Assembly: GCA_013823505.1 (NCBI GenBank)
Contig: PNMH01000044.1
Coordinates: 1 to 32,157, forward strand
Reading direction: 5' to 3'
DNA: 32,157 bases
From: Polaromonas sp.
Lineage (GTDB): Bacteria; Pseudomonadota; Gammaproteobacteria; Burkholderiales; Burkholderiaceae
A model generated the notes under the pieces. That model was given only the letters and a program-made list of their open reading frames with translations. It was not told the DNA's origin and did no database searches. The first letter of the stretch is position 1. Each line of letters begins with the position of its first letter. Shown here one piece after another: positions 7,657-24,885 of the stretch. A program made the translations under genes and the position numbers.

Positions 7657-8432
7657 AGCACGCCCGCATCGCCTGGGCCGGCGCGGTCCACGACGCCGTG
7701 GAAGTCGACGGCCAGCTGGAACTGCGCACGCCTGCGTTCAAGGGTCGCCGCGTGGCCTTCGACGAGGTGGTGTGGCTGCCCCCGCTCGCGCCCAACCCGC
7801 CCACGCGCCCGCGCACCGTCATCGCCCTCGGCCTGAACTACGCCGACCACGCGAAAGAACTCGCCTTCAAGGCGCCCGATGAGCCGCTTGCGTTTCTGAA
7901 AGGCGAAGCCAGCCTCACGGGCCACAACGGCTTCACCGTGCGCCCGGCGGGCGTGCAGCACATGCACTACGAATGCGAACTCGCGGTGGTGATCGGCCGC
8001 ACCGCCAGGCGCGTGAAGAAGGCCGATGCGCTGGACTTCGTGGCCGGCTACACCGTGGCCAACGACTACGCGATCCGCGACTACCTGGAGAACTGGTACC
8101 GCCCCAACCTGCGCGTGAAGAACCGCGACACCTGCACGCCCATCGGCCCATGGTTGGTCGACGCGGCGGATGTGCCCGATCCCATGAGCCTGGCCCTGCA
8201 GACCACCGTCAACGGCAAAGTCACGCAGCAGGGCAGCACGCGCGACATGATCTTCGACGTGCCCACGCTGATCGAGTACTTCACCGCCTTCATGACGCTG
8301 CAACCCGGCGACCTGATCCTCACCGGCACGCCCGACGGCGTGGTCGACTGCCAGCCCGGCGACGTGGTCGTCACGTCCATCGAAGGCATTGGCGACTTGG
8401 TCAACACCATCACTTCATCCGAACCCGCATGA
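7653..8432 (+). CDS. hpaG2: 4-hydroxyphenylacetate degradation isomerase/decarboxylase, C-terminal subunit
   Basis: 259 residues, FAH fold, equivalent to the C-terminal half of enteric HpaG. The metal-binding acidic residues are visible: E107 and E109 in MHYECELAVVIGR and D138 in ANDYAIRDY. The LILTGTPDGV segment near the C-terminus is typical of the family. The expected chemistry is decarboxylation and isomerisation that yields 2-oxohept-3-ene-1,7-dioate. It starts with an ATGA overlap on hpaG1 and ends with an ATGA overlap into hpaE, so these genes are tightly coupled. Confidence 0.92.
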   Translation: MKHARIAWAGAVHDAVEVDGQLELRTPAFKGRRVAFDEVVWLPPLAPNPPTRPRTVIALGLNYADHAKELAFKAPDEPLAFLKGEASLTGHNGFTVRPAGVQHMHYECELAVVIGRTARRVKKADALDFVAGYTVANDYAIRDYLENWYRPNLRVKNRDTCTPIGPWLVDAADVPDPMSLALQTTVNGKVTQQGSTRDMIFDVPTLIEYFTAFMTLQPGDLILTGTPDGVVDCQPGDVVVTSIEGIGDLVNTITSSEPA

Positions 8433-9898
8433 CCCTCCAGCACCTCATCAACGGCCGGTCCGTGGCCAGCGCCACCACCTTCGAGACGATCAACCCCGCT
8501 TCGCAAGAGGTGCTGGCCGAAGTGAGCGCTGGCGGGGCGGACGAGATCAACTCGGCGGTGCAAGCCGCCAAAGACGCCTTCCCGAAATGGGCCGGCCTGC
8601 CCTCCACCGAGCGCGCCAAGCTCATGCGCAAACTCGGCGAGTTGATCGCCGCGCACGTGCCCGAGATTGCGCAGCTGGAGACGAACGACAGCGGCCAGGT
8701 GATCGCGCAGACCGGCAAGCAGCTCATTCCGCGCGCGGCCGACAACTTCTCGTACTTCGCCGAGATGTGCACCCGCGTGGACGGCCACACCTACCCCACG
8801 CCCACCCACCTGAACTACACGCTGTTCCACCCGGTGGGTGTGTGCGCGCTCATCAGCCCGTGGAACGTGCCCTTCATGACGGCCACCTGGAAGGTCGCGC
8901 CGTGCCTGGCGTTCGGCAACACGGCGGTGCTGAAGATGAGCGAGCTCAGCCCGCTCACCGCCGCGCGGCTGGGCGAACTGGCGCTCGAAGCCGGCATTCC
9001 GGCCGGCGTGCTGAACGTGGTGCACGGCATGGGCAAGGAAGCGGGTGAACCGCTGTGCGCCCACCCGGATGTGCGCGCCATCTCGTTCACCGGGTCCACC
9101 GCCACGGGCAACCGCATCGTGCAGAGCGCGGGCCTCAAGAAGTTCAGCATGGAGCTGGGTGGCAAGAGCCCGTTCGTGATCTTCGACGACGCGGACCTGG
9201 CCCGCGCGCTGGACGCCGCCGTGTTCATGATCTTCAGCAACAACGGCGAGCGCTGCACCGCGGGAAGCCGCATCCTGGTGCAGCAGAGCATTTACGCCGA
9301 CTTCGCGGCCAAGTTCGCCGAGCGGGCCAAGCGCATCACCGTGGGTGATCCGCTGGACGAACAAACCATCGTCGGTCCAATGATCAGCCGGGCGCATCTG
9401 GCCAAGGTGCGCAGCTACATCGAGCTGGGTCCGAAAGAGGGCGCGACGCTGCTCTGCGGCGGGTTGGACCGGCCGTCATACGCTGCCGAGTTGCCTGCGC
9501 GCGTGGCTCAAGGCAACTACGTGTGGCCCACGGTGTTCGCGGATGTGGACAACCGCATGCGCATCGCGCAAGAAGAAATCTTCGGCCCTGTGGCCTGCCT
9601 CATTCCGTTTCGCGATGAAGCGCATGCGATCGAGCTGGCCAACGACATTCAGTACGGGCTGTCCAGCTATGTGTGGACGGAGAACCTGGGCCGTGCGCAC
9701 CGGGTGGCGGCCGCTGTCGAAGCCGGCATGTGTTTCGTGAATTCGCAGAACGTACGGGACCTTCGCCAGCCGTTTGGCGGCACCAAGGCGAGTGGCACAG
9801 GACGCGAGGGTGGCACCTGGAGTTATGAGGTGTTTCTGGAGCCGAAGAACGTGGCTGTTTCTCTTGGGTCGCATCACATTCCTCACTGGGGTGTTTGA
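8429..9898 (+). CDS. hpaE: 5-carboxymethyl-2-hydroxymuconate semialdehyde dehydrogenase
   Basis: 489 residues, NAD-dependent aldehyde dehydrogenase superfamily. It oxidises the ring-cleavage product of HpaD to the diacid used by HpaF and HpaG. The catalytic cysteine is C276 in NNGERCTAGSR and the general base is E242 in MELGGKSPF. The Rossmann segment SFTGSTATGNRI (219-230) follows the family pattern and SPWNVPFM is conserved. The start ATG overlaps the hpaG2 stop by 4 bp. After it the operon is broken by 312 bp containing two hairpin elements before hpaD. Confidence 0.93.
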   Translation: MTLQHLINGRSVASATTFETINPASQEVLAEVSAGGADEINSAVQAAKDAFPKWAGLPSTERAKLMRKLGELIAAHVPEIAQLETNDSGQVIAQTGKQLIPRAADNFSYFAEMCTRVDGHTYPTPTHLNYTLFHPVGVCALISPWNVPFMTATWKVAPCLAFGNTAVLKMSELSPLTAARLGELALEAGIPAGVLNVVHGMGKEAGEPLCAHPDVRAISFTGSTATGNRIVQSAGLKKFSMELGGKSPFVIFDDADLARALDAAVFMIFSNNGERCTAGSRILVQQSIYADFAAKFAERAKRITVGDPLDEQTIVGPMISRAHLAKVRSYIELGPKEGATLLCGGLDRPSYAAELPARVAQGNYVWPTVFADVDNRMRIAQEEIFGPVACLIPFRDEAHAIELANDIQYGLSSYVWTENLGRAHRVAAAVEAGMCFVNSQNVRDLRQPFGGTKASGTGREGGTWSYEVFLEPKNVAVSLGSHHIPHWGV

Positions 9899-9924: not shown

Positions 9925-10030
9925 GGATCGCGAGGGCATGGCGCTCTGCTCCGCGAATGTCCCCCGGTCCGGGCGTTGCCCGGCCCTCCTCCTTTATTTC
10001 GCTGCGCAGAGCGCCCGACCCTCGCGATCC
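9925..10030 (+). repeat. nested-hairpin repeat element, copy 1
   Basis: Outer stem: 9925-9949 pairs with 10006-10030 at 22 of 25 positions. Inside are conserved block A (9950-9967, begins TCCGCGAATG), an inner 6-bp hairpin CCGGGC-gtt-GCCCGG (9969-9983), and conserved block B (9984-10006, ends TTTCGCTGCG). Blocks A and B recur exactly in copy 2 at 10075-10178 in inverted orientation, while both stems have different sequences there. No open frame of note is present. It lies between hpaE and hpaD. Confidence 0.85.
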
Positions 10031-10074
10031 GAAGCGGCACCTTGGCGCCCGTTCGTTGGCGTGCGTGGTCCGCA

Positions 10075-10178
10075 GTGGCATGAAGCCTTGGGGTGTCCAC
10101 CGCAGCGAAATAAAGGAGGAGGGGCCAAAGGCCCCGGGGGACATTCGCGGAGGTGGGCGCCCCAAGGCCTCATGCCAC
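10075..10178 (-). repeat. nested-hairpin repeat element, copy 2 (inverted)
   Basis: Outer stem: 10075-10100 pairs with 10153-10178 at 23 of 26 positions, and two of the three mismatches would be G-U pairs in RNA. Block B (10101-10123) and block A (10134-10151) are exact reverse complements of those in copy 1 over 23 and 18 bases. The inner hairpin is GGGGCC-aaa-GGCCCC (10121-10135), a different sequence from copy 1. The element ends 32 bp before the hpaD start. The stretch 10031-10074 between the copies shows nothing else I can name. Confidence 0.85.
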
Positions 10179-10210: not shown

Positions 10211-11134
10211 ATGGGACAACTAGCCCTGGTAGCCAAAGTCACCCACGTCCCCTCGATGTACCTCAGCGAACTCGACGGACCCAGAAAGGGCACGAGACAG
10301 GACGCCATCGACGGCCACCAGGAAATCAGCCGACGCTGCAGAGAACTCGGTGTGGACACCATCGTCGTTTTCGACACCCACTGGCTCGTCAACGCCAGCT
10401 ACCACCTCAACTGCGCACCGCACTTCGAAGGTCGCTACACCAGCAACGAACTGCCGCACTTCATCAGCAACCTGCCGTTCAAGATCCCCGGCAACCCCGC
10501 GCTCGGGAAGATCCTGGCCCGGGTGTGCAACGAACACGGCGTGGAAACCCTCGCCCACGACGCCACCACCCTCGGCCCCGAATACGGGACGCTGGTGCCC
10601 ATGCGCTACATGAACGCCGACCAGCACTTCAAGGCCATCTCGGTCTCCGCGCTGTGTCAGGCCCACTACCTCAACGACAGCGTGCGCCTCGGCTGGGCCA
10701 TGCGCAAGGCCGTGGAAGACCACTACGACGGCACCGTCGCGTTCCTCGCCAGCGGCAGCCTCAGCCACCGCTTTGCCCAGAACGGCCTGGCGCCCGACTA
10801 CGCCTTCAAAATCTGGAGTCCCTTCCTGGAGACGCTCGACCGCCGCGTCGTGCAGATGTGGGAGCAAGGCGAGTGGAAGGCGTTCTGCGAGATGCTGCCC
10901 GAGTACGCCGCCAAAGGCCACGGCGAAGGCTTCATGCACGACACCGCCATGATGCTGGGCGCGCTCGGCTGGAGCGAATACACCGGCCAGGCCGAGGTCA
11001 TCACACCGTACTTCGGCGCCTCCGGCACCGGCCAGATCAACGCCGTCTTTCCCGTCACGCCACAGACCGGCGCCGCCATTCCCGCCGCACAGGCCTCGGC
11101 GGCGCACGGCTATCAAACCGTCTCACGTCTCTGA
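10211..11134 (+). CDS. hpaD: 3,4-dihydroxyphenylacetate 2,3-dioxygenase
   Basis: 307 residues, extradiol dioxygenase of the LigB (type III) superfamily. It uses Fe(II) and O2 to cleave homoprotocatechuate (3,4-dihydroxyphenylacetate) to 5-carboxymethyl-2-hydroxymuconate semialdehyde. Likely metal ligands are H12 (KVTHVPSM) and H57 (FDTHWL), with a glutamate further on. The ASGSLSHRF segment and GHGEGFMHDTAMMLGALG are characteristic. The start is set by GAGGAGCAAGAC immediately upstream of the ATG; the open frame extends further up but only into the repeat element. hpaF follows after 5 bp. Confidence 0.93.
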   Translation: MGQLALVAKVTHVPSMYLSELDGPRKGTRQDAIDGHQEISRRCRELGVDTIVVFDTHWLVNASYHLNCAPHFEGRYTSNELPHFISNLPFKIPGNPALGKILARVCNEHGVETLAHDATTLGPEYGTLVPMRYMNADQHFKAISVSALCQAHYLNDSVRLGWAMRKAVEDHYDGTVAFLASGSLSHRFAQNGLAPDYAFKIWSPFLETLDRRVVQMWEQGEWKAFCEMLPEYAAKGHGEGFMHDTAMMLGALGWSEYTGQAEVITPYFGASGTGQINAVFPVTPQTGAAIPAAQASAAHGYQTVSRL

Positions 11135-24711: not shown

Positions 24712-24815
24712 GGGCCGCCGAAGGGTGGCTCCCCGCTTTTCCTCCCTGAGCGGGCGCCTTAGTGTGTGACAGCAAAAAGGCTTCCCAACCCGGCCCAACT
24801 GGCCGGGTTTTTTTT
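24712..24815 (+). ncRNA. candidate small RNA, about 105 nt, with C-rich loop
   Basis: Between the promoter-like elements and a strong terminator lies a sequence able to fold into successive hairpins: CGGCG-ggc-CGCCG at the 5' end, then CCCGC and GCGGG enclosing the loop UUUUCCUCCCUGA, a possible GCCUU/AAGGC pairing, and the terminator stem. No convincing reading frame is present. A pyrimidine-rich CCUCC loop is what sRNAs that pair with Shine-Dalgarno sequences present. The alternative is a 5' leader with attenuator for hemJ, whose ATG is 71 bp downstream. The sequence did not resemble 6S, tmRNA or 4.5S RNA to me. Confidence 0.55.
24787..24815 (+). terminator. strong intrinsic terminator
   Basis: AACCCGGCC (24787-24795), loop CAACT, GGCCGGGTT (24801-24809), then an uninterrupted T-run (24808-24815). 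The stem is a perfect 9 bp. It ends the candidate small RNA and lies upstream of hemJ. Confidence 0.9.
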
Positions 24816-24885
24816 GACCAACCGCACCCGGGCCCTCTTGGCGCACCAGGCGGCCCATGTCGTAGACGGGGGCTACACTGACCGC

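Follow-up and report, generated by a model that had tools for sequence, protein, structure and literature searches.

The paired hairpins in the hpaE-hpaD gap of a Polaromonas genome appear to be a copy of a small mobile DNA repeat of beta- and gamma-proteobacteria

The hpaE-hpaD hairpins and their family

What are two large nested hairpins, inverted with respect to each other, doing in the gap between two neighbouring genes of Polaromonas sp.: do they belong to this one junction, or did they come to it as a copy of something more widespread? Comparing the locus with other bacterial genomes, we find that these hpaE-hpaD hairpins appear to represent a single instance of a small mobile DNA repeat, which is present in many beta- and gamma-proteobacterial genomes. 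The whole stretch analysed (contig PNMH01000044.1, 32,157 nt, hereafter the window) carries hpaE at 8429..9898 and hpaD at 10211..11134, both on the plus strand and both above the cut-offs of their families (TIGR02299 at 791 bits, cut-off 638, and TIGR02298 at 447 bits, cut-off 316, respectively), and the location given by the initial annotation is hereby confirmed. Between the two genes lie a left half (9925..10030, core on the minus strand) and a right half (10075..10178, core on the plus strand), nested hairpins of 104-106 nt each, which were recognised by their arms, their folding and a covariance model and which are separated by a 44-nt spacer (10031..10074), which by eye does not resemble the spacers found in other genera. 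The 33-nt arms of the left half (9925-9957/9998-10030) are 85% complementary and the 35-nt arms of the right half (10075-10109/10144-10178) 86%, in agreement with the earlier statement that the stems are unlike between the copies and self-paired within each. The two blocks said to be common to both copies are likewise present: block B of the left half (9984..10006, minus strand) shows 100% complementarity to its partner at 10101-10123 over 23 nt, and block A of the right half (10134..10151, plus strand) shares an exact stretch of 18 nt (by eye) with 9950-9967, inside a 28-nt match at 89%. A core pattern scan placed the internal-loop strands together with the P3 helix at 9958..9994 (minus strand) in the left half and at 10113..10143 (plus strand) in the right half; these are two occurrences in the whole window versus 0.00 expected.

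Folded on the core strand, the two halves reach -70.1 and -73.6 kcal/mol (z -7.1 and -8.7), and for neither half was any of 200 shuffles equally stable. The opposite strands (-67.7 and -68.6 kcal/mol, z -8.3 and -9.7) fold about equally well, and folding by itself therefore does not identify the selected strand. The covariance model scores 91.8 bits at 9931-10024 and 84.4 bits at 10083-10170, both halves being among its 45 training rows. No Rfam family matched the element above its gathering threshold (best 26.3 bits, cut-off 100). Elsewhere in the window, at 24730-24816 (plus strand), there is an Rfam match to anti-hemB (RF02837, 64.4 bits, cut-off 49.5).

Further copies, for which the initial annotation had recommended a search, are found in other genomes, and the pair is thus not a local accident. 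On the megaplasmids of three Variovorax strains, 13 sites differ by at most three mismatches from an 18-nt piece (reversed control 2), and 12 of the 13 make six inverted couples. The exact core pattern was found in at least 119 stretches in one scan of a genome collection; among the matches listed are Comamonadaceae (Variovorax, Ramlibacter, Rhodoferax, Hydrogenophaga, Pseudorhodoferax and Xylophilus) as well as Xanthomonadales (Thermomonas, Luteimonas, Lysobacter, Stenotrophomonas and a Xanthomonas metagenome bin). Sixteen genomes, selected because each already had a core match, contain 1-71 copies per genome, with a reversed control of 0 in all 16. A looser core, many single matches of which are chance, was matched in 58 of 399 Burkholderiales genomes, and 19 of these had at least three matches, 17 of which we accept as real on inspecting the letters matched (the reversed control reached three in one genome); in the GTDB class Gammaproteobacteria it was matched in 29 of 369 genomes, four of them with at least three matches and one of these common with the Burkholderiales set. 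The stricter search with the covariance model (strict filters, at most 21 candidates scored per genome) detected copies in 7 of 200 Burkholderiales genomes. Because the search patterns partly dictate which letters of the core are conserved, this conservation is not counted as evidence here; pairing is imposed in the exact pattern only at GAA/TTC.

The inverted arrangement is nearly invariable: 93 of 94 neighbouring couples at most 3 kb apart are minus-then-plus (overlapping loci are partly double-counted; 72 distinct couples were inspected), 76 of these 93 are spaced 90-130 bp, and the single direct repeat is that of locus L027. Right halves in G594, a Burkholderiales genome, have an altered core, AAGAAGGAGGAG..CGACGGGTGACA or similar (L331, L332, L333, L341), and possibly represent a diverged subfamily. 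Outside some Variovorax copies (L101, L058, L079, L002), a short unit like GCGCCCTGAACAACA seems to stand in tandem, two or three times.

Fold, covariation and the probable selected strand

On the core strand, a half-element can fold into P1, P2, a purine-rich internal loop (RTMAAGGNGGAG / CGGNGGACA) and P3. P1 comprises about 25 bp, and its sequence is mostly free except for a GGG patch and two G.A mismatches. Two of the loop positions supposed earlier turned out to be mostly G.A mismatches within one continuous helix. We aligned 45 halves from 40 loci (51 were picked and 6 left out), the arms being gap-free, and the stem covariation which had been proposed as a check is evident: changes occur on both sides in 32 of the 36 base pairs, paired cells amount to 86.7% versus 59.7% in shuffled alignments, and the covariation score is 0.638, compared with 0.166 for shuffled and at most 0.133 for slid alignments. 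P2 changes in step (GCGAA/TTCGC, GCGGA/TCCGC, GCGGC/GCCGC), and it also exists in versions with a tandem G.A (GCGAAGT with ATGAGC, GCGAGGT with ACGAGC). Within the loop, too, certain combinations of two positions are avoided: in 284 distinct copies with a paired P1, the pair N11/N9' is A/G in 238, G/A in 30, A/A in 11, C/G in 4 and C/T in 1, and G/G was observed 0 times versus about 26 expected if the two positions were independent. Since N11 varies with N9', a Shine-Dalgarno role of the loop was dropped; the Shine-Dalgarno-like run, which had been pointed out in block B, is not kept in the family, its variants AAGG[A/G/C]GG tracking the other loop strand.

The mismatches within the stems are informative about the strand on which selection acts. 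Among the 4650 stem cells of 186 A-type halves at 25 positions, 3756 are Watson-Crick, 363 are G.T and 33 are A.C, G.T making up about 9% of the paired P1 cells. In columns 1-19 of the alignment, G.T exceeds A.C in 35 of the 45 halves, the reverse is seen in one and a tie in nine; with positions 12 and 18 removed, the 45-row alignment contains 57 G.T versus 9 A.C. The G.T at P1 position 12 recurs in 72 of the 186 A-type halves, many of which are related Variovorax copies. Palindromes produced by copying errors or selected as duplexes should have as many G.T as A.C, and the excess of G.T therefore points to a core strand selected in single-stranded form. From these counts, the core strand seems to be selected as a folded single strand, the alternative being a strand-biased mutation process.

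Whether this strand is DNA or RNA can be approached through the loops of P3. The C(GNA)G triloop is present in 68 of 157 distinct P3 hairpins, its reverse complement in 1, GNRA in 7 and UNCG in 0; terminator-like hairpins at the same loci (n=225) gave 0 for C(GNA)G, 19 for UNCG and 5 for GNRA. GNA triloops are very stable in DNA. As C(GNA)G is common in P3 and GNRA and UNCG are rare or absent, the loop types point to DNA, and we lean towards single-stranded DNA as the folded strand, the share of G.T suiting RNA too.

Dispersal, decay and genomic surroundings

Two copies in G594 are 94% identical across 267 bp and have unrelated flanks. On a conjugative plasmid of Burkholderia anthina, two catechol-pathway genes lie 269 bp apart, and the gap contains one intact half; in Achromobacter pestifer (94.1% identity over 56% covered) the two genes have a 4-bp overlap, as do the corresponding genes in Ideonella (87.1% identity over 49% covered). 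The 94%-identical copies at unrelated loci, together with the empty version of the plasmid site, indicate that the element disperses. Two genes which are 5 bp apart in Variovorax SRS16 (flanks 81-85% identical) have a full pair between them in strain SPNA7, strain 2u118 (94.7% identical) retains the outer arms only and PDNC026 a remnant; the covariance model found no match in the empty or deleted versions of these sites. By eye, no clear target duplication was seen in the copies inspected, with a possible RTGA repeat in B. anthina. The outer ends are alike among Variovorax copies and differ between genera among copies with the common loop, a loop which in this comparison is common because of how the search was built.

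Once resident, copies in Variovorax appear mostly to decay, judging from related copies with 4 paired double changes versus 27 pair-breaking single changes (13 half-comparisons, not independent). At the end of an ETF-QO-like gene, a full pair is present in 4 of 30 Variovorax loci, the others having a lone half, a remnant or none. At some of these loci (within L242-L271) the element occupies the position at which relatives have a terminator-like hairpin and T run, and elsewhere both are present.

The hpaE-hpaD site itself was followed by searching the end of hpaE in 399 genomes of the family, 334 of which matched, and by inspecting the best 30 of the 334 loci; hpaD lies 11-799 bp downstream of hpaE in 18 of these 30 and was not found beside it in the remaining 12. 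Among the 18 loci (the covariance model was applied to 15), an intact pair with other stems is found in 6 and no element in 10, in Hydrogenophaga sp. IBVHS1 the left half is present and the core of the right half is deleted, and one locus has, by our own reading, a short remnant. Between the copies of L185 and L188 at this site there are 6 paired double changes per half, with 1 and 5 breaks, and a comparison of the left halves of the window and IBVHS1 shows two paired double changes, along with one change that keeps the pair, one that breaks it and one at an unpaired position. Such paired double changes imply either that some of the resident copies are under selection or that the hpaE site was re-used. 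The copies at L372 (4001-4076) and in the window (9925-10178) directly follow aldehyde dehydrogenase genes in ring-cleavage operons of different genera.

Occupied junctions (n=113; called with a simple gene caller, 25 locus-edge groups and 6 groups within an ORF being dropped) are convergent in 45 cases compared with 100 of 468 in the background, which is an excess, co-directional in 57 (background 299 of 468) and divergent in 11 (69 of 468). Lone halves, counted inclusive of L274-L330, which are mostly chance matches, lie along transcription in 27 and against it in 18 cases at co-directional junctions; at convergent sites, 29 are opposite to and 10 along the nearer gene, a bias which we read as the geometry of decayed pairs.

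Because the layout is REPIN-like, a RAYT was tested as the mobiliser. Y1_Tnp is encoded in 12 of 16 and in 15 of 17 element-bearing genomes, some of those lacking it being drafts or metagenome bins, and in 13 of 15 genomes chosen for having no core match, and the draft G594, with 57 core matches, gave no Y1_Tnp match. We scanned 45 Y1_Tnp loci (31 from element-bearing genomes, in which there are 7 further matches, and 14 from core-free genomes); none of the 31 had a convincing core match, four loose ones being judged chance by eye, loose matches occur at 5 of the 45 loci (reversed control 1), and the best covariance-model hit at the 31 loci is 15.2 bits (E 0.84). RAYT/Y1_Tnp was consequently rejected as the mobiliser, being without convincing linkage to the element at the loci scanned and equally common in core-free genomes. 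Among ORFs within 1.5 kb of the copies, the 20 largest clusters look metabolic or antisense by eye, none transposase-like. A larger autonomous version was also rejected, a couple about 0.7 kb apart (L235) enclosing a 173-aa ORF taken for a host gene, as was a phage origin, for which matches were weak only (E 0.08 or worse) and, for a Variovorax pair, absent; the sole viral contig with the element carries genes that by eye are of chromosomal type.

Possible explanations and known repeat families

The explanation which we regard as about evenly poised between right and wrong, and which is built from comparison of sequences, is a non-autonomous mobile element, the folded single-stranded DNA of which a candidate host enzyme would recognise. 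Such an element would comprise about 250-300 bp in two inverted halves and would be non-autonomous; the folded form of its core strand would be single-stranded DNA, on which an enzyme encoded elsewhere in the host, given the single-strand fold perhaps one of the HUH single-strand type, would act. This enzyme may read the loop and the lengths of the helices, not the sequence of the helices, and may use one half as each end of the element, and copies would persist wherever the host tolerates them, for example between hpaE and hpaD. Copies are indeed dispersed between genes, some in partly deleted states. Several observations speak against this explanation: searches for a mobilising gene found none, a G.T share of about 9% fits RNA at least equally and could be raised by strand-biased mutation, the paired double changes between L185 and L188 hint that resident copies are selected, provided that the site was not re-used, folding is just as good on the opposite strands, and target duplication is not clear. 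A structured RNA, the main rival, in which the transcribed core strand would, for example, bind a protein at the purine-rich loop or set the processing of RNA between operon genes, is possible and in our opinion rather unlikely. The inverted pair would provide one sense copy for either direction of transcription, and the G.T count far above that of A.C, the recurrent G.T at P1 position 12, the paired double changes at the hpaE-hpaD site and the co-directional placement in 57 of 113 occupied junctions all suit an RNA; the P3 loops, however, are mostly outside the RNA-favoured types, lone halves are divided 27 with to 18 against transcription, chance matches included, close relatives lose or degrade their copies, and there is no Rfam match.

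We consider it improbable that the element is a classical MITE, in which case an insertion sequence would supply the DDE transposase that reads its double-stranded ends and the nested hairpins would be secondary. Dispersed 267-bp units with abrupt ends and the likeness of the outer ends among Variovorax copies agree with such an element, but the outer ends vary across genera despite the common loop (common by construction of the search), the strand-asymmetric excess of G.T has no reason under double-stranded recognition, and target duplication is, again, none that is clear. The initial annotation had suggested a small mobile REPIN- or MITE-like repeat, and its mobile look and similar layout stand, whereas REPIN membership fails at the link to the transposase: a REPIN moved by a resident RAYT (Y1_Tnp) would match the inverted pairs and the frequency of Y1_Tnp in element-bearing genomes, but Y1_Tnp is just as common where the core is absent, none was found in the draft G594 and none of the 31 loci has a convincing core match, leaving this origin mostly refuted and very hard to believe. 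A local accidental duplication has nothing beyond the window itself in its favour and, given the copies in other genomes and the covarying stems, is refuted with near certainty. Departing from the named classes, one may tentatively propose, as an idea with a better chance of failing than of holding, a mobile element whose selected form is a single-stranded nucleic acid folded on itself. In this element the purine-rich loop would be recognised, its two GGNGG strands perhaps building a quadruplex-duplex hybrid looped by P3, and the helices would drift by compensation, the mover being an enzyme of a type so far linked to no repeat family or, more boldly, the folded RNA itself being the functional or mobile form.

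The element adds to the bacterial palindromic repeats a family inheriting structure more than sequence, with many copies, one loop, largely free stems and a presence in two orders. It offers a handle on the movement of REP-like repeats that lack a linked RAYT, since the loop can serve as bait for a protein that reads it. Searches by sequence similarity undercount such structure-kept repeats, and operon junctions, as that of hpaE and hpaD, can be split by them.

To our knowledge, ERIC, NEMIS and YPAL-type repeats are mobile-looking intergenic palindromes without a known transposase. These repeats are conserved along their sequence; the element described here is likewise a mobile-looking intergenic palindrome, but its stems vary and covary. 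Integron attC sites act as single strands that fold, their terminal hairpin being variable and their unpaired bases fixed, a folded-strand design resembling that of our element, the copies of which, in contrast, come as inverted pairs. In the literature searched, with most subscription journals outside its coverage, no description of the element was found. REPINs and BIMEs likewise join two inverted palindromic units into one dispersed, mostly intergenic, many-copy element, but the REP unit measures 20-40 bp (PMC3733652), whereas each of our halves is about 100 nt long and has its helices nested about an internal loop, the helix sequence is largely free and no linked RAYT was found. The nearest published repeat in the same taxa is BRE (Beta-proteobacterial Repeat Element; Hot et al. 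2011, PMC3110155), which is described as about 90 bp long, GC-rich, usually intergenic, conserved in sequence and hosted by Bordetella and several Comamonadaceae, standing in direct tandem arrays at some loci and also singly; our element, in which one of 94 couples is a direct repeat, may be related to it. The best reading of the hpaE-hpaD hairpins is a small palindromic mobile repeat which is not a REPIN.
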